Shown: piece by piece, positions 2,755 through 35,266 of the stretch
Layout of the letters: the number at the start of each line of letters is the position of its first letter
Numbering within the stretch: the stretch's first letter is position 1
DNA from: a virus
Length of the DNA: 36,416 nucleotides
IMG/VR virus record: IMGVR_UViG_3300027754_000233
Span: 1-36,416 of that record
Strand: one strand, 5' to 3'
Notes under the pieces: generated by a model
Seen by the model: the letters and a program-made list of their open reading frames with translations, nothing else
The model's database searches: none
What the model was told of the DNA's origin: nothing
Translations under genes and position numbers: made by a program

Positions 2755-3543
2755 ATGGCCGCATCGATCAACGCATCGACCTCTGCTGGGGTCGTAACAA
2801 CTGCCGACACAACGGGCAACCTTAACCTTCAGAGTAACGGTGCAACGGTGCTGGCGATGACCAGCGCGGGGGTTGCTGTTACTGGGACGCAGAGTGTTAG
2901 TGGTGCCGCAACGCTTAGTTCGACTCTTGGGGTGACAGGAGCAACAACGCTTAGTTCAACTCTTTCCGCTGGTAACACTACGGTTACTGGGACGCTTGGG
3001 GTGACGGGTACGATTACGGCCTCAGACGCTTTTATAAATGCTGTTAACACAACAGCATTATTTGGCGTACTGACAAGTGCCAACGGCTCGAGATTTGTTA
3101 TTCAATCAAATATGTCCGGGGCTAACGCACCTGAGATTATCAACACACACTCCCAATCAAGCGGTGACTACGCATTAAAGTTCTATCGCGATACGTCAAG
3201 TTTAGTGGGATCAATACAGACAACCAACGTAGCTACTAGCTACGTTACATCATCTGACTACCGGCTAAAAGAAAACGTCCAACCAATGACGGAGGCTTTG
3301 GCTATTGTTGCCGCGCTAAAACCTGTGTCGTTCAACTGGAAAGTAGACGGTTCTGACGGTCAAGGATTCATCGCTCACGAACTTGCTGAAGTTGTGCCAG
3401 ATTGTGTAACGGGTGAAAAAGATGCTGTAAATGAAAATGGCTCAATCAAGCCACAAGGCATAGACACCTCATTCCTTGTTGCTACGTTGACCGCAGCCAT
3501 ACAAGAACTCGCCGCTAAAGTAGCTGCATTGGAAGCCAAATGA
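2755..3543 (+). CDS. Tail fibre/spike with C-terminal peptidase S74 chaperone domain (copy 2)
   Basis: 262 residues, start preceded by AAAGGATAAATC. Residues about 45-90 contain Thr/Ser/Gly shaft repeats (TLSSTLGVTG, TLSSTLSAGN, TGTLGVTGTI). The S74 domain begins near residue 166: S167-D-Y-R-L-K172 supplies the catalytic Ser and Lys, followed by ENVQPM, FNWK and GFIAHELAEVVPD, and ends in a helix (LAAKVAALEAK) for trimer formation. The chaperone end is clearly paralogous to copy 1 (SSDYRLK, HE[FL].EV.P, GEKDAV.ENG, AALEAK), while the shaft differs. Autocleavage before S167 is expected from the family. The stop overlaps the next start as ATGA. Confidence 0.88.
   Translation: MAASINASTSAGVVTTADTTGNLNLQSNGATVLAMTSAGVAVTGTQSVSGAATLSSTLGVTGATTLSSTLSAGNTTVTGTLGVTGTITASDAFINAVNTTALFGVLTSANGSRFVIQSNMSGANAPEIINTHSQSSGDYALKFYRDTSSLVGSIQTTNVATSYVTSSDYRLKENVQPMTEALAIVAALKPVSFNWKVDGSDGQGFIAHELAEVVPDCVTGEKDAVNENGSIKPQGIDTSFLVATLTAAIQELAAKVAALEAK
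3226..3246. repeat. Perfect 21-bp palindrome in the fibre gene
   Basis: AACGTAGCTA, one central C, then TAGCTACGTT: two exact 10-bp inverted arms. It lies in the coding sequence for NVATSYV, just upstream of the S74 catalytic Ser-Asp codons of copy 2. The equivalent stretch in copy 1 is not palindromic. It could be chance, a recombination joint or a protein-binding site. Confidence 0.6.
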
Positions 3544-3683
3544 TCTGGCTCATTGCATTCCTGACTAAAAACGCAGCGGCTATTGCCATCATCGGTGCTA
3601 CTGCTGGGGCTATACAAGCTACCGAAGGTGCCATCATCAACGCTATCGTACTGGAAAAAGAAATTAAAAACGGGAGTAAATAA
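3540..3683 (+). CDS. Small hydrophobic membrane protein (47 aa)
   Basis: Short gene filling the gap between copy 2 of the S74 fibre and the collar fibre. The ATG overlaps the upstream stop as ATGA, and its TAA overlaps the downstream start as TAATG; this double coupling is the main reason to call it. The product starts MIWLIAFLTKN and continues AAAIAIIGATAGAIQ, giving one or two short hydrophobic segments, then a charged C-terminus (EKEIKNGSK). It could be a holin-class or accessory membrane peptide at the edge of the lysis region. No family can be assigned. Confidence 0.6.
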   Translation: MIWLIAFLTKNAAAIAIIGATAGAIQATEGAIINAIVLEKEIKNGSK

Positions 3684-4861
3684 TGGCATCAACGTACAGC
3701 ACGAATCTGGCTCTTGAGCTTATCGGTACTGGAGAACAGTCCGGTACTTGGGGTACGACTACCAACAACAATCTTGGAACCCTGCTTGAACAGGCTATTT
3801 CAGGGTATGTAACGCAAGTCTGTACGGGTGGCACTGACACCATCACGATCCCAAACGGGTCAACAGGCGTTGCGAGGAATATGTATCTTGAACTGACCAC
3901 AACGGGTGGCGGTACGCTGGTGGTGCCAGCCAACAAGAAGCTCTACTTCATCTTTAACAACACTGCTTCTGCCATCACGGTAAAAGTCTCAGGCCAAACT
4001 GGGGTTTCAGTACCTGCTGCTGCAAAAATGGCGTTGGTCTGTAACGGCACAGACATTGTGAGCGCGGTAAGTTACTTTGCTGCATTAACCGCAGCCTCTT
4101 TAACCCTGACTACGCCATTGGCTGTTACCTCTGGAGGTACGGGTTCTGCAACGGTAACCGCTAACAACGTCATTATAGGCAACTCAGGTGGCACAGGGTT
4201 TTCTTCTGTTGCTCCTAGCACTTCTGGTAACGTACTTACTTCTAACGGCACTGCTTGGACATCAGCGCAAGGTTTTGTTTCTGGCATGATTATGATGTGG
4301 TCAGGAAGCATAGCTTCTATACCTAGTGGTTGGTACTTGTGTAACGGGTCAAATAGCACTCCTGATCTGCGTGATCGAATGGTTATTGGTGCAGGTAGCA
4401 CCTACGCTGTGAACGCAACTGGGGGTTCTGCAACAACTACTCTTATCACTGCAAACCTAGCAAGCCATACCCACACGTATAGCTCAACTTCGGGGAGTAT
4501 GAGTGCAGATCACTCGCATACTTATTCGGGTACTTCGTCTGGACAGAGCGTAACCCACAACCACGTTGATTCTGGTCACTCCCATACTATTGACTCACCA
4601 ATTAATTTGATTGGGGGCACAAGTTCATTTGCGCTTGCTGGGGGTACGTATCCATACGCTGTTGTAGCAAGTACGGATACGGGAGTTGCAAGTATTGGCA
4701 ACGCCAGTGTAGATCACAGCCACACCTACAGTGGCACATCTTCTGGCGTAAGCGCAAACCATACCCACTCTGTATCAGGAACTTCTGATGCAACAGGTTC
4801 AGGTACAGCAGCAACTACCATCTCGCCGTACTACGCCCTAGCTTATATAATGAAGTCGTAA
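3683..4861 (+). CDS. Tail collar-domain fibre with HxH-rich tip
   Basis: 392 residues. Residues 1-190 are a fibre-type region with a conserved-looking N-terminus (STNLALELIGTGEQSGTWGTTTNNN). Residues 200-240 are a phage tail collar domain: GMIMMWSGS, IPSGWYLCNG, TPDLRDRMVIGAG. Residues 260-365 contain six His-x-His pairs (262/264, 277/279, 292/294, 299/301, 345/347, 360/362). In the T4 gp37 tip, HxH motifs coordinate iron along the trimer axis, so a metal-stabilised needle is a fair inference here. The C-terminus PYYALAYIMKS is the usual end of collar-domain fibres. Most likely a receptor-contacting fibre. Confidence 0.85.
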   Translation: MASTYSTNLALELIGTGEQSGTWGTTTNNNLGTLLEQAISGYVTQVCTGGTDTITIPNGSTGVARNMYLELTTTGGGTLVVPANKKLYFIFNNTASAITVKVSGQTGVSVPAAAKMALVCNGTDIVSAVSYFAALTAASLTLTTPLAVTSGGTGSATVTANNVIIGNSGGTGFSSVAPSTSGNVLTSNGTAWTSAQGFVSGMIMMWSGSIASIPSGWYLCNGSNSTPDLRDRMVIGAGSTYAVNATGGSATTTLITANLASHTHTYSSTSGSMSADHSHTYSGTSSGQSVTHNHVDSGHSHTIDSPINLIGGTSSFALAGGTYPYAVVASTDTGVASIGNASVDHSHTYSGTSSGVSANHTHSVSGTSDATGSGTAATTISPYYALAYIMKS

Positions 4862-23206: not shown

Positions 23207-23396
23207 ATAGAACACCGTGTTTACCTCCAAGAAGACCGAATTCAGCGCTGGCTCTTATTCTCAGGTGGAGGGCTGCAGTTAGCCCTTCCTGTTTTATCTT
23301 GTTGGTAGACACGGCGGGTACGAAGAAGCACTCGTCCTTCTTTATGTCAGCCCACGGATAGTATATCCGTAGCTTCTTTTTCATCTTCTTTGTCAA
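23190..23396 (-). CDS. Small basic protein at the operon end, function unknown
   Basis: 68 residues. The start lies inside the end of the primase-helicase gene (50-base overlap) and the stop TGA lies 17 bases inside the end of the giant + strand gene. It begins MTKKMKKKLRIYYPWADIKKDECFFVP, continues with a basic region (AALHLRIRASAEFGLL) and ends GVLFTRRS. The block YPW.DIKKDE.FFVP followed by a helix and a short GKHGVLFTRR strand resembles small uncharacterised proteins found at ends of phage replication operons. That resemblance and an upstream gene in the same direction are why I accept it despite overlaps at both ends. No function is known to me. Confidence 0.55.
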   Translation of the reverse strand: MTKKMKKKLRIYYPWADIKKDECFFVPAVSTNKIKQEGLTAALHLRIRASAEFGLLGGKHGVLFTRRS

Positions 23397-26265
23397 GTAA
23401 TGTCGATTCAGGGCGGCTTATCTTGATGGTGTTGACCCGCATCTGTGGGCCTTTTGTCTTTGACAGCATATCCTTCTTTACGTAGTTCACCCTGTACAGC
23501 TTCTCAAGCTGCTTGCGAAAGTCCGAGTACCCGAAGCTCATGCCAGAGCAGTACGCCTTGAGAAGCTGCTCTTCTATGAAGAAGTCTATGTAGCCGGGAG
23601 TAACCCCCCGCTCAACCCTACCGGCAATCTGCGTTCTGGTAATTGACTCGTCCACAACTCCTTGCTCACCGAAGGTAGCTTCCATAGCGCCGTCGATAAC
23701 CCTGACGTTGATAAACTTGCCGTAGAACTCCCTGATGTAAGCGTTCAGCACATCGTCTGCGGTTCGCACGTTGCTCTTGACGATGAGTCGTGCGTCTTCA
23801 ACAATGCCCTTGTAGAAATTAATGATCTGGCGTATGGGCAGGTCTATTATGTTTGCGTACTGGGAACCGGCTGCGATACATCCTGATACGTTGGAAGTAA
23901 CCCCTGCGGTCCAGTAGCGCTCATCATCTGTTAGCTTGAACTCATCCCTCACCTGTATCTCCACCTGATCGTACAAGTCCATAGCAAAAGTGCGGTTCTG
24001 CACTACCCACTTGGCAAACAGATCGCCAGCATGGGAGTAGTTGTCACGCAGCGATTTTATGACAGACACTTCTTGTGAACTCCATTTAAGAACCTTGGTA
24101 GCTACCCACTCAAGCATCCGTCGCATCTCACCTTCTGAGGAGTGCTTCCTAGCGCCAGACAGGTAGTCAAAGGCGTGTGTGTTGGAGGATAGCAAAGCCT
24201 GAAGCGCCCATATGGAGGTGTTTATCCGTTCCTTGTTTGCCCCATTCTCCATACGCTCCTTGCCACGCCCCTCACTTATATCAAACACAAATCCCGGAAA
24301 CCATTCAAAATCCTTGCGGTTCTTGGCGGTTATCTCGTCGCTGATGAGGGGCAAGCTTCGAAGCAGTCCAGCCCTTTGCTGCATGGCAACGTCTGATGTG
24401 CTTTTACCTACGCGATAGTCTCTTGGATGCCCCCATATAGAAGCCGCCAGTTCAAGTGCCAGACTCTTGCCAGTACCTGATTCAGTAGACCCTGCATGAA
24501 AGGTCATGCCGCCAAGCTTGGAGAACTGCATAAACGGGGAACCAAACCCTACGCCGCACCCCAGCGCCAAGATGTCATACATCCCACGGGAAATAAGCAT
24601 CTGTGGGAACTTGCGCCAGTTATCAATGGAGCCTTTTGGTTTTGTAGCGAAGGACACGTTCTCAAGTCCCGGCATGGGTATCTGCTGCACATCCCCGTTT
24701 TGCAGGAATATCTTACCGCCAGCAACGAAGTTATTGTTCTCCTGCCAGCCGTACCCATCCGGTATCGGGATCGCTGCCTTATTAGTTGACGCTGCTTCTA
24801 CACATCCACGCACATAGTCAAACAGGTTCTTGTCATTACCCGCGCCGAATGCGGCGATTATGTTCTGCGAAGCAAGGGCTTTTACAGTCTCATCTTTGCT
24901 GACCACGGCTTTCTGCGGCAACATCAACTGTACAGAACCTTCAGGCCGCATCGCCAGCATGTACACGAAATGCTCTTTCTGGACGTTGAGTATGTCCACG
25001 ACAAACAACTCATACGCAAGCACCATAACCTGCTTCACCACGGTGTTCTTGTTCTCGTCCTGCGTCTCAACGTCTCTTAGGATAGCGCCGTTACTGCCGT
25101 AAGAAAACCCTCTTGGTGGTTTGGGGCGTTTTATCTTTATTACTTCTGACCCGCTATCGGGGCTTAGTGACCTGTCCTTCTCCTCGTTGTCAGTCTGTAG
25201 CACGTTGCCAAGCACCAGCGGGTTTGTGATCTTCCCCCAGTGCGAGCATTTCGTACACACCCCCGGATTCTCACTGTCCATCTTTGTACAAGGATACGGG
25301 CCTCCCTTCTTGGCAATGTCCTTCAGTTTCTGGCGCATCCTATCTTCTGTGTAGGGGTGCATTTCTGTAAGTAGCTTAGCCGCTCCTTCGCCATCCTCGC
25401 ATTTCAAAGTCCAAGACAGCAGTCCCCGCCAGATGGGTTCCATGCCTTCTTTAGTGGCGTTCTCTAGGTAGTACTTAAGCTGGTCGCAGCCTGTACCTTG
25501 CGACGTTCGTACCACTATACCTTTGAAAAACGTGCGGCTTATCTCTACTATCTTTACTTCCGTGGAGCTTGGTGTTCTCTTAGGGCGTGTGCCGGGGATG
25601 TCAGCCAAGGTTGTTTTTGTTGCTGCTTGCGCAACAGCGTTGCCCTTTAGCTGTTCTTTTACTGCGATGGCGAAGTTGGCAAAGTCAAACGTACCTCCGG
25701 TAACAAGAATCTTTACCTTGCGGGGGGATTCCTTCTTCTTCCAGTTTGACGTTTCAGGTACGCGAAGAACCCTTGCAGCATCGGCTGTGACCGAGTAGTC
25801 GATATTCAGGCTGCGCTCTTTACACAGTCTCTTCAGGTTCTCTGAAGCTTCTTTCCACTCCGGTACTGGGATGTTGTCCGTAAAGGGCCAGTACACATGC
25901 AGCCCACCGCCAGATGAAACAACCCACGGGTTACCAAGCAGCCCCACTTTGGTTTCTTGCAGGAACTTGTCCAGCGCTGTAGCAGCTTCTTGTTTTGTCG
26001 CGTAGTCTTTCCCCGTCCCACAGTCTATGTCCATAAATGCAGACTTTAGAAACTGAGCGTTTGCTGCCGTGCGGCTACCAGCCTCTTTAAAACTGGCTAA
26101 CGCAAAGTACGTGTCGTATTCAGCGGCGTTAAACGCTTTGATAGTAGGTTCAAGGTCAGAAACCTTGTCTACGAATACGTGTTGTTTTCTTCCTGAGCTG
26201 AATTCCGCCAAGCACAAAACACCCGCCGACGGCACTACAGCCGCGATAAACTCTAGCGGTTTCAT
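23347..26265 (-). CDS. Bifunctional primase-helicase (AEP primase + DUF927-like ATPase)
   Basis: 972 residues; AGGA lies 8 bases before the ATG. The N-terminal 180 residues show archaeo-eukaryotic primase motifs: FMD79-I-D81-C, SSGGGLH123VYW, and a third acidic site at D156/D162 before AARVLRVPETSNWK. A Cys cluster (C326, C337, C340, PYPC..GVCTKCSHW) suggests metal binding between domains. From about residue 385 a DUF927-type region starts (RGFSYGSNGAIL), leading to Walker A GSTESGTGKS at 592-601 and Walker B LISDE at 640-644. It would unwind and prime DNA at the phage fork, working with the family A polymerase and SNF2-type helicase of the same operon. Length and domain order fit phage primase-helicases. 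Confidence 0.85.
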   Translation of the reverse strand: MKPLEFIAAVVPSAGVLCLAEFSSGRKQHVFVDKVSDLEPTIKAFNAAEYDTYFALASFKEAGSRTAANAQFLKSAFMDIDCGTGKDYATKQEAATALDKFLQETKVGLLGNPWVVSSGGGLHVYWPFTDNIPVPEWKEASENLKRLCKERSLNIDYSVTADAARVLRVPETSNWKKKESPRKVKILVTGGTFDFANFAIAVKEQLKGNAVAQAATKTTLADIPGTRPKRTPSSTEVKIVEISRTFFKGIVVRTSQGTGCDQLKYYLENATKEGMEPIWRGLLSWTLKCEDGEGAAKLLTEMHPYTEDRMRQKLKDIAKKGGPYPCTKMDSENPGVCTKCSHWGKITNPLVLGNVLQTDNEEKDRSLSPDSGSEVIKIKRPKPPRGFSYGSNGAILRDVETQDENKNTVVKQVMVLAYELFVVDILNVQKEHFVYMLAMRPEGSVQLMLPQKAVVSKDETVKALASQNIIAAFGAGNDKNLFDYVRGCVEAASTNKAAIPIPDGYGWQENNNFVAGGKIFLQNGDVQQIPMPGLENVSFATKPKGSIDNWRKFPQMLISRGMYDILALGCGVGFGSPFMQFSKLGGMTFHAGSTESGTGKSLALELAASIWGHPRDYRVGKSTSDVAMQQRAGLLRSLPLISDEITAKNRKDFEWFPGFVFDISEGRGKERMENGANKERINTSIWALQALLSSNTHAFDYLSGARKHSSEGEMRRMLEWVATKVLKWSSQEVSVIKSLRDNYSHAGDLFAKWVVQNRTFAMDLYDQVEIQVRDEFKLTDDERYWTAGVTSNVSGCIAAGSQYANIIDLPIRQIINFYKGIVEDARLIVKSNVRTADDVLNAYIREFYGKFINVRVIDGAMEATFGEQGVVDESITRTQIAGRVERGVTPGYIDFFIEEQLLKAYCSGMSFGYSDFRKQLEKLYRVNYVKKDMLSKTKGPQMRVNTIKISRPESTLLDKEDEKEATDILSVG

Positions 26266-33833: not shown

Positions 33834-33997
33834 TAGCCTTTTATCTCCCCAAGACAGAACATCTTTGCTGCACGGGCAGCTATTACGATGTCATCCAGAT
33901 AATCACATGCCTCTGCCCACTTCTTATCAAGGATGGCATCGTGCGCTTTCTTACGTAGCAGTCGTATCTTTATCAGGCTTTCGCTGTAGTCAATCAT
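33833..33997 (-). CDS. Small helical protein (54 aa), function unknown
   Basis: Short gene in the gap before VRR-NUC. It starts MIDYSESLIKIRLLRKKAHDA and ends AARAAKMFCLGEIKG. The ATG overlaps the upstream stop as ATGA and its TAA overlaps the VRR-NUC ATG as TAATG, so it is coupled on both sides. The sequence predicts two amphipathic helices. The family is not recognised; coupling and codon-like composition are the evidence. Confidence 0.65.
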   Translation of the reverse strand: MIDYSESLIKIRLLRKKAHDAILDKKWAEACDYLDDIVIAARAAKMFCLGEIKG

Positions 33998-34398
33998 TTG
34001 TTATCTCCGGGGAGTTGGTTTTCTAAGTGCTTTACTTTTGCGTTAAAGATTATGAGTTTTCTTTTTATACAGAGGAGAGCCGTAAAAAAATCCTCCCGGC
34101 ACTGCGGGTCATCGCAGTACAAGTTGTGTACGTCTATACAATTCACGAACGCATGTTCACTAACTCGGCGCTCTAGGGTGTATTTTTCTATGTGCTTGTT
34201 TGCCTCTGACCTTTCGTGGCTGACCATACCCTGATATTTGTTAGCCCTAATCTTTTGTGTTTCTACTCTTCTTGCGAGTGCTTTAATCTCACTGTCTCTA
34301 CGGCGGATGTCCTTGTTTACCCTTGTATCTACTTCTACTGTAATAAGGGTGCGGATGCTATCAACTACGCTTTTGGGTACTCTTATGTCACTTGGCAT
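33994..34398 (-). CDS. Coiled-coil protein, function unknown
   Basis: 134 residues; AGGTGAG lies directly before the ATG. Residues 15-80 are charged and helical (VEVDTRVNKDIRRRDSEIKALARRVETQKIRANKYQ), a likely coiled coil. The C-terminal half has a His/Cys-containing stretch (NCIDVHNLYCDDPQCREDFFTALLCIKRKL). It lies directly downstream of the zinc-ribbon/alpha-CTD gene with five bases between. No family is recognised. Confidence 0.55.
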   Translation of the reverse strand: MPSDIRVPKSVVDSIRTLITVEVDTRVNKDIRRRDSEIKALARRVETQKIRANKYQGMVSHERSEANKHIEKYTLERRVSEHAFVNCIDVHNLYCDDPQCREDFFTALLCIKRKLIIFNAKVKHLENQLPGDNK

Positions 34399-34403
34399 CT
34401 CAC

Positions 34404-34925
34404 CTATCCTTCATCCACTGCCAGTGATAGCCCATGCACCGCCAGTGCAGCTTCTATTTCTGTTAAGGTGCCACGACCAAGGTTGTGTATCTCAAAGAGG
34501 GAGCTAGGAGTGCGCTGTAGCAGATCACCGATAGTCAGTACCCCCTCTGCTAACAGACAATTTGTCGCCCTCATGCTTAGGGAGAGGTACATTAGGCTCT
34601 CCTCTAAAAACTCACTCTGGCCCCCCGTAGCCACCCATCCAGCTCGGAAAGTGTCAAATTCCATAAGCCGCCGATCTGGGTAATATGTATGTCGGTGTGC
34701 TGAGTTTATATGCTGCTTCCACGCCGCTGATAGGTTCATACATACATGCCACTCTGTTTTCGGGTAGATAACATCTGTCTCTTCCAGTGCGTTGCACTTA
34801 TTGCAAACGTGTGTATACGGTTTGTCCTTGTACTTGACGCTGAACCTGTGTTCAAACTCACCACCGCACTCACACAGCATTCTTGTTACCGACCACTTGA
34901 TCGGTTCTGATTTAAACGTACTCAT
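34404..34925 (-). CDS. Zinc ribbon fused to RNA polymerase alpha C-terminal-like domain
   Basis: 173 residues; GGAGGAG upstream, ATG overlapping the preceding stop by ATGA. Residues 18-44 form a probable zinc ribbon (C18-x-C20 and C41-x2-C44). Residues 110-168 align without gaps to the E. coli RpoA C-terminal domain: LSMR119ATN122C123L, IGDLLQRT, HNLG150RGTLTE156IEAALAVHGLSL. Equivalents of Arg265, Asn268, Cys269, Gly296 and Glu302, which contact UP-element DNA, are kept; Lys298 is Gly and Ser299 is Thr. The acidic 261 patch that meets sigma70 is absent (MYLS where E. coli has DDLE). There is no assembly domain. It may bind promoter DNA or regulators and redirect or block host transcription; this is inference. 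Confidence 0.8.
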   Translation of the reverse strand: MSTFKSEPIKWSVTRMLCECGGEFEHRFSVKYKDKPYTHVCNKCNALEETDVIYPKTEWHVCMNLSAAWKQHINSAHRHTYYPDRRLMEFDTFRAGWVATGGQSEFLEESLMYLSLSMRATNCLLAEGVLTIGDLLQRTPSSLFEIHNLGRGTLTEIEAALAVHGLSLAVDEG

Positions 34926-35266
34926 ACAATCTCCTCCGGGTTTCTAAAGTACAGCCACTTTTTGGATACCTTTGTCCTACTCACAAGACCTTCTCTTGCC
35001 ATCTTGGACAGTGCGTTTAAAGCTTGCTCCAACGTAACCACCGCTTCCTTAGATACCACTATCGCCGGTTGTGGCTTGTCGGTTAGTGCTGCTGCCAGCC
35101 TCGTGCAGATGTCAACAAGGTTCCCGATTGCTGCGTTTGGTCTGGGCTTTGCCTTGATAAATCTAATATGAATCCACGGCTCATTAAGGGTTGGCACATA
35201 GACCGGATACTGCTTCTGCGGTTGCTTGAGTGTCCGGTCTGGGTTGATGGCTTGCGCTAGGTTCAC
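34922..35266 (-). CDS. Putative winged-helix-type small protein
   Basis: 114 residues from GTG 35266, which overlaps the upstream stop (GTGA) and is preceded by AAGG. Residues 1-45 are Pro-rich (PQKQYPVYVPTLNEPWIHIRFI). Residues 47-110 are helical then strand-like: IGNLVDICTRLAAAL, VVTLEQALNALSKMAREGLVSRTKVSKKWLYFR. The last part, helix-helix-REGLV-wing, resembles a winged-helix DNA-binding domain. It immediately precedes the zinc-ribbon/alpha-CTD gene, so a joint regulatory role is conceivable. The fold call is tentative. Confidence 0.5.
   Translation of the reverse strand: MNLAQAINPDRTLKQPQKQYPVYVPTLNEPWIHIRFIKAKPRPNAAIGNLVDICTRLAAALTDKPQPAIVVSKEAVVTLEQALNALSKMAREGLVSRTKVSKKWLYFRNPEEIV

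Follow-up and report, generated by a model that had tools for sequence, protein, structure and literature searches.

The C-terminal domain of the RNA polymerase α subunit (α-CTD) is where the enzyme recognizes UP elements and is contacted by activators. Phages are known to engage it in several ways. The zinc-finger activators of the Ogr/Delta type, which occur in P2-like phages, contact the α-CTD of the host polymerase. Phage T4 attacks the same domain with Alt and ModA, two enzymes that disable the contact between α-CTD and UP element by ADP-ribosylating Arg265 (PMC2988021). Phage proteins with a free α-CTD of their own are already known by database name: gp005 of the isolated Bacillus phage vB_BmeM-Goe8 is annotated as "RNA polymerase subunit alpha", UniProt lists an "RNA polymerase alpha subunit C-terminal domain-containing protein" for Rhodococcus phage Finch and Mycobacterium phage Mithril as well as for uncultured Caudovirales, and BFVD holds more phage proteins named after the domain. 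Several unrelated phage α-CTD proteins are thus labelled in databases, apparently without having been studied, as no work on phage proteins with a fused α-CTD turned up in the open-licence literature searched. The statement in the first-pass annotation that no named phage system has the form described below holds for this literature, but UniProt and RefSeq do name phage α-CTD proteins, with many other partners; what we found nowhere else is the combination with a Cys4 domain.

We analyzed a stretch of 36,416 nucleotides, the viral record IMGVR_UViG_3300027754_000233 of IMG/VR, referred to here as the window. One of its open reading frames (ORFs) encodes 173 residues that join a Cys4 domain to an α-CTD (Table 1); it starts with an ATG at 34925, preceded by AGGAG 5 nt 5' of the start, and its stop codon ends at 34404. 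The protein has the fold and the DNA-contact residues of RpoA, but it lacks the N-terminal assembly domain, has lost protein-contact determinants and carries the fused Cys4 part. Like Goe8 gp005 and the proteins of Finch, Mithril and the uncultured Caudovirales, it is short and ends in, or is built around, a free α-CTD, yet the N-terminal parts of those proteins differ from it wherever their sequence was readable, and a Cys4 domain joined to the α-CTD was not found among them. Ogr/Delta proteins are likewise small phage Cys4 proteins with a functional link to the α-CTD; however, they have no profile match to the Cys4 family of the window, and only in the window is the α-CTD covalently attached. 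Alt and ModA also act on the α-CTD/UP-element contact but, unlike the window protein, are not α-CTD homologues.

Table 1. Features at the α-CTD locus of the window
Feature	Position	Strand	Basis and remarks
ORF joining a Cys4 zinc-ribbon-like domain, a linker and an RNA polymerase α-CTD	34404..34925	-	173 aa
Cys4 zinc-ribbon-like domain, residues 1-60 (C18, C20, C41, C44)	34746..34925	-	orthologous to stand-alone phage proteins
Linker, residues 61-103	34617..34745	-	contains helices and the motif F-x-x-G-W; phrog_22947 matches weakly (E 0.013)
RNA polymerase α-CTD, residues 104-169	34419..34616	-	PF03118, PDB matches, AlphaFold, Foldseek; R119 = E. coli Arg265
Internal ATG (M112, at 34592) with AGGAG 6 nt upstream	34590..34603	-	ribosome-binding match
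4-bp tandem TATGTATG at the fusion junction, sets the in-frame reading	34737..34744	-	sequence
Linker + α-CTD segment, 324 bp	34421..34744	-	87 unrelated bp at the same place in L002 (blastn)
22-bp block common to window and L002, right edge of exchanged segment	34399..34420	-	blastn
114-aa gene upstream of the α-CTD gene, possible winged-helix regulator	34922..35266	-	DUF7342, E 4.8e-4 (below cut-off)

The Pfam family RNA_pol_A_CTD (PF03118) matches residues 104-162 of the protein with 54.8 bits (E 7.6e-15), above its curated cut-off of 23.8 bits. A sequence search of the PDB with the α-CTD region returned RpoA only (best E 1.4e-10), the strong NCBIfam matches are RpoA models, and the gapless alignment to E. 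coli RpoA that had been claimed is confirmed over residues 114-169. AlphaFold, run on an alignment of 26 rows, predicted residues 111-170 with pLDDT values of 96-98, and the mostly low-confidence part of its model is the linker (residues 61-103). In Foldseek, the predicted α-CTD matched that of E. coli (3n4m_C, E 3.7e-6, 0.7 Å over 64 columns); the best 50 PDB matches listed were RNA polymerase α subunits or their complexes, with the DNA-bound α-CTDs 3n4m, 1lb2 and 9zum among the top matches. By sequence and predicted fold, the C-terminal third of the protein is securely a genuine, RpoA-derived α-CTD, with a similarity far beyond chance. The first-pass annotation had named a generic helix-hairpin-helix family as the outcome that would speak against its assignment; this identity is rejected, as all strong profile, sequence and fold matches are to RpoA.

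Contamination with a host rpoA gene is also rejected, since the record lacks the α N-terminal domain (PF01000 has no match anywhere in it), phage genes lie on both flanks of the ORF and the region is collinear with that of a related viral contig, L002. The best 80 cellular matches of the domain are all RpoA, and its identity to β/γ-proteobacterial RpoA is 51-55%, a leaning that may be biased because the E. coli sequence was among the search patterns. Second α-CTDs above cut-off were few and mostly weak in 114 gammaproteobacterial genomes; the window type is therefore not a common cellular paralogue.

The DNA-contact residues of the α-CTD are largely kept in the window, which in E. coli numbering retains R265, N268, C269, E273, N294, G296 and E302. 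The 265 determinant (R265, N268, C269, G296, K298, S299, E302) is identical at five of its seven positions, with a conservative S299T and a K298G through which the lysine is lost, just as the first-pass annotation had read these positions. It had also read the acidic 261 determinant for σ70 as lost, which the alignment bears out (D259Y, E261S). Beyond what was noted there, the changes extend to activator-facing residues, where K271 is replaced by Leu and E286/V287/E288 by Pro/Ser/Ser, residues 286-288 being the site contacted by CRP. R265 and N268 are critical residues for DNA binding by the α-CTD, and K271 is required at PBAD (PMC11434276).

When we compared 18 viral α-CTDs from proteins other than RpoA with 82 RpoA sequences, R265 and G296 were present in all 18 viral domains, N294 in 17, and N268 and E302 in 16 each, with these five residues invariant in the RpoA set (82/82). 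At position 261, in contrast, an acidic residue is found in 11 of the 18 viral domains versus 80 of the 82 RpoA sequences. By these residue counts, the DNA face of viral α-CTDs is conserved and their protein-contact faces are drifting.

Six distinct viral contigs (L002, L003, L004, L005, L149 and the near-identical pair L150/L152) carry orthologues of the N-terminal part of the window protein. In all six the orthologue stands alone, as a protein of 61-66 residues, with 92% identity to residues 1-60 of the window protein in L002 and 56-66% in the others. The four cysteines are invariant across the five members that were aligned first and retained in the remaining relatives, so the Cys4 motif of the first-pass annotation stands; its "zinc ribbon" stands less firmly. 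Because no zinc-ribbon Pfam model passes its own cut-off on residues 1-60 and the AlphaFold confidence over the domain is moderate, we use this label as a motif-level assignment for a putative zinc site; the family has weak sub-threshold matches to zinc-ribbon models and to L31. Membership in the Ogr/Delta family is rejected, as the Ogr_Delta profile was absent from the Pfam matches of five family members at E-values up to 5. The search for homologues that combine the conserved cysteines with an α-CTD, which had been proposed as a check, found none: the combination occurs in no other protein we retrieved, and one phage only carries it.

It had been suggested that the zinc ribbon replaced the N-terminal assembly domain of an α subunit, and here the relatives point the other way. 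The DNA of L002 is 95% identical to the window up to CAGAGTGGCATG (window position 34745) and matches again in the 22-bp block, which covers the last bases of the α-CTD gene together with the following gene's ribosome-binding region; the 87 bp between these points in L002 hold an ORF of 36 residues. In L004 and L005 the zinc-ribbon gene directly adjoins the next conserved ORF. Since the relatives stand alone and L002 swaps the 324 bp for 87 bp, the α-CTD was joined to a zinc-ribbon gene already in place, apparently as an accessory cassette that entered behind it. An RpoA with a replaced or lost N-terminus is rejected on the same comparisons. No viral contigs matching residues 63-173 were found. 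Immediately after the α-CTD gene, the window carries a 134-aa ORF (33994-34398) that is also missing in L002 (about 400 bp versus 66 bp); two accessory pieces were therefore exchanged side by side around the shared 22-bp block.

The α-CTD gene is located in the replication-gene cluster of the phage, upstream of genes for a VRR-NUC nuclease, a family A DNA polymerase and an SNF2 helicase, and its start is overlapped through an ATGA by the 114-aa gene, which also has an excisionase PHROG match (E 0.095). A σ region 4 (PF04545) was found neither in the 173-aa protein nor in any other protein of the window, and a promoter scan near the α-CTD gene gave fewer sites than shuffled sequences. The nearest named phage by its helicase is Pseudomonas phage Rollin (36%). 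Elsewhere in the window, positions 23347-26265 encode a protein of 972 residues that contains DUF927 and weakly matches the LigD primase-polymerase, likely a phage primase-helicase. In L005, a carrier of the stand-alone zinc-ribbon gene, a 228-aa σ70 region 4 protein (61.7 bits; L005:281-967) is encoded not far upstream of that gene.

Among relatives of the window by polA and SNF2 helicase, PF03118 scored above cut-off in one of 50 records (L014) and in none of 41. The protein of L014, a related phage, is a different one of 156 residues, encoded close to polA as in the window and without a zinc ribbon. In other viral proteins the Pfam-confirmed partners of the α-CTD are a coiled coil (L126), σ region 4 (L128) and HTH_17 with σ region 4 (L141/L142, L145); L137 has HTH_17 and a weaker σ4-like helix-turn-helix, and further proteins have short N-termini without an assigned domain. 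As in the window, the α-CTD of the HTH_17/σ region 4 proteins is a captured module at or near the C-terminus, whereas the modules it is joined to are σ4 or HTH DNA binders rather than a Cys4 domain. An unexpected pairing occurs in gp23 of the isolated Ruegeria phage vB_RpoS-V16 (L144:2929-3795), in which an N-terminal α-CTD precedes a part that is annotated as a pyrophosphatase and possibly MazG-like.

None of 14 other viral α-CTD records contains the α N-terminal domain, and five of 15 tested have a match to the large terminase, many of the records being fragments. A single clade of all viral α-CTDs was rejected (AU p 0.0006) in a tree that has 60 columns only, long branches and many weak forks. 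Some α-CTDs of the HTH_17 and σ region 4 proteins resemble RpoA of other bacterial groups (L141, 76% to L125). These observations suggest that several unrelated phages made similar captures, as a recurring means of contacting promoter DNA. With ten α-CTDs as queries, a wider viral scan yielded no further loci. The INPHARED entries MT839913, MT836419, MT835508 and MT839982, filed as phages, encode bacterial RpoA, whole or in part, including the N-terminal domain, and appear to be contaminating host DNA.

For the window protein we favor, with a probability of roughly 0.4, a role as a small DNA-binding regulator that would occupy A/T-rich, UP-like DNA without recruiting polymerase. Arg119, the equivalent of Arg265, would enter the minor groove of such DNA, and the Cys4 part would give a second contact, to DNA, to polymerase or to another phage protein. 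Held at UP-like sites, the protein would compete with host α-CTDs at UP-dependent promoters, and host or early-phage transcription would be damped. Occupancy appears likelier than recruitment because the protein lacks a domain for assembling into polymerase and no longer has the faces normally used for protein contacts. The modification of Arg265 by T4 makes the α-CTD/UP contact a known phage target and thus the strategy plausible, and the σ region 4 and HTH partners seen in other phages are those expected beside a promoter-DNA module. Two points count against occupancy: the glycine in place of Lys298, a DNA-contact residue, and the pyrophosphatase annotation in V16, which fits poorly with a purely transcriptional role. 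An isolated α-CTD is probably a weak DNA binder, so a monomer might compete poorly without a second module.

The same evidence can be read in other ways. The α-CTD could grip UP-like DNA at phage promoters with the zinc ribbon contacting host polymerase or the winged-helix-like neighbor, so that polymerase would be recruited to early or middle genes. Translational coupling to this neighbor, the σ region 4-α-CTD and HTH-σ4-α-CTD proteins of other phages and the σ region 4 protein near the zinc-ribbon gene of L005 would suit such an adaptor; we nevertheless judge it unlikely, as the residues that contact σ region 4 (D259, E261) are lost, a σ region 4 protein is missing from the window and the zinc ribbon occurs without α-CTD in all relatives. 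Quite unlikely, in our view, is a generic helix-hairpin-helix tether that would localize the zinc-ribbon protein at the minor groove for replication or recombination instead of transcription: the nuclease, polymerase and helicase genes downstream and the V16 fusion point to it, but viral α-CTDs conserve the RpoA-specific DNA determinant, beyond the fold alone, and several of their partners are transcription-type domains. A decoy for the host activators that normally bind the α-CTD, raised as activator trapping in the first-pass annotation, is very improbable; such a free domain might in principle hold activators, but the loss of K271 and the Pro-Ser-Ser at 286-288 weaken the idea.

Compatible with any of these functions is a reading in which the fusion is not the natural product. 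As it hangs on four bases of a single assembled record and no relative has it, the in-frame join at TATGTATG may stem from recent slippage or from an indel in the assembly; the real products would then be a zinc ribbon of 61 residues and an α-CTD protein of its own. With TATGTATG cut to one unit, the zinc-ribbon gene would end at 61 residues, exactly as in L002, and overlap a 111-aa α-CTD gene by an ATGA, the style of this operon. The solitary orthologues and the α-CTD near polA without zinc ribbon in L014 agree with this, as does the internal ATG at M112, whose own AGGAG is a Shine-Dalgarno (SD) signal equal to that of the gene's start and could yield a free α-CTD of 62 residues; this internal start is suggestive only, because, of 160 internal in-frame ATG/GTG codons examined, 17 show an SD match of at least 5 at 3-12 nt. 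On the other side, the recorded frame stays open for all 173 codons and its start has a good ribosome-binding site; since both flanks run collinear with L002, this is no gross chimera. We regard separate products as a real possibility, though less likely than not.

Whichever product is made, the polymerase-free occupancy of UP-like DNA that we favor for the window would be one case of a broader process, which we propose tentatively: phages may repeatedly capture the α-CTD of RpoA, let its σ and activator faces drift and attach this UP reader to diverse modules (zinc ribbon, σ region 4, HTH), obtaining general promoter-DNA binders that reprogram or block host transcription, with the window showing one such addition at base-pair resolution. 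The interest lies in this wider pattern of repeated capture rather than in the single fusion. The window and L002 form a with/without pair for how an α-CTD module is added, and a phage α-CTD with its DNA face kept and its protein faces altered offers a ready test of whether UP occupancy alone can take over transcription.

The loci L128:1386-2237, L137:1692-2612, L141:3290-4252 and L145 (near 3001-3798) encode σ70 region 4 and/or HTH_17 together with an α-CTD. Judged by their domains, these proteins would unite a reader of -35-type DNA with one of UP-type DNA in a single chain, free of polymerase, and they are possibly more interesting than the window protein itself.
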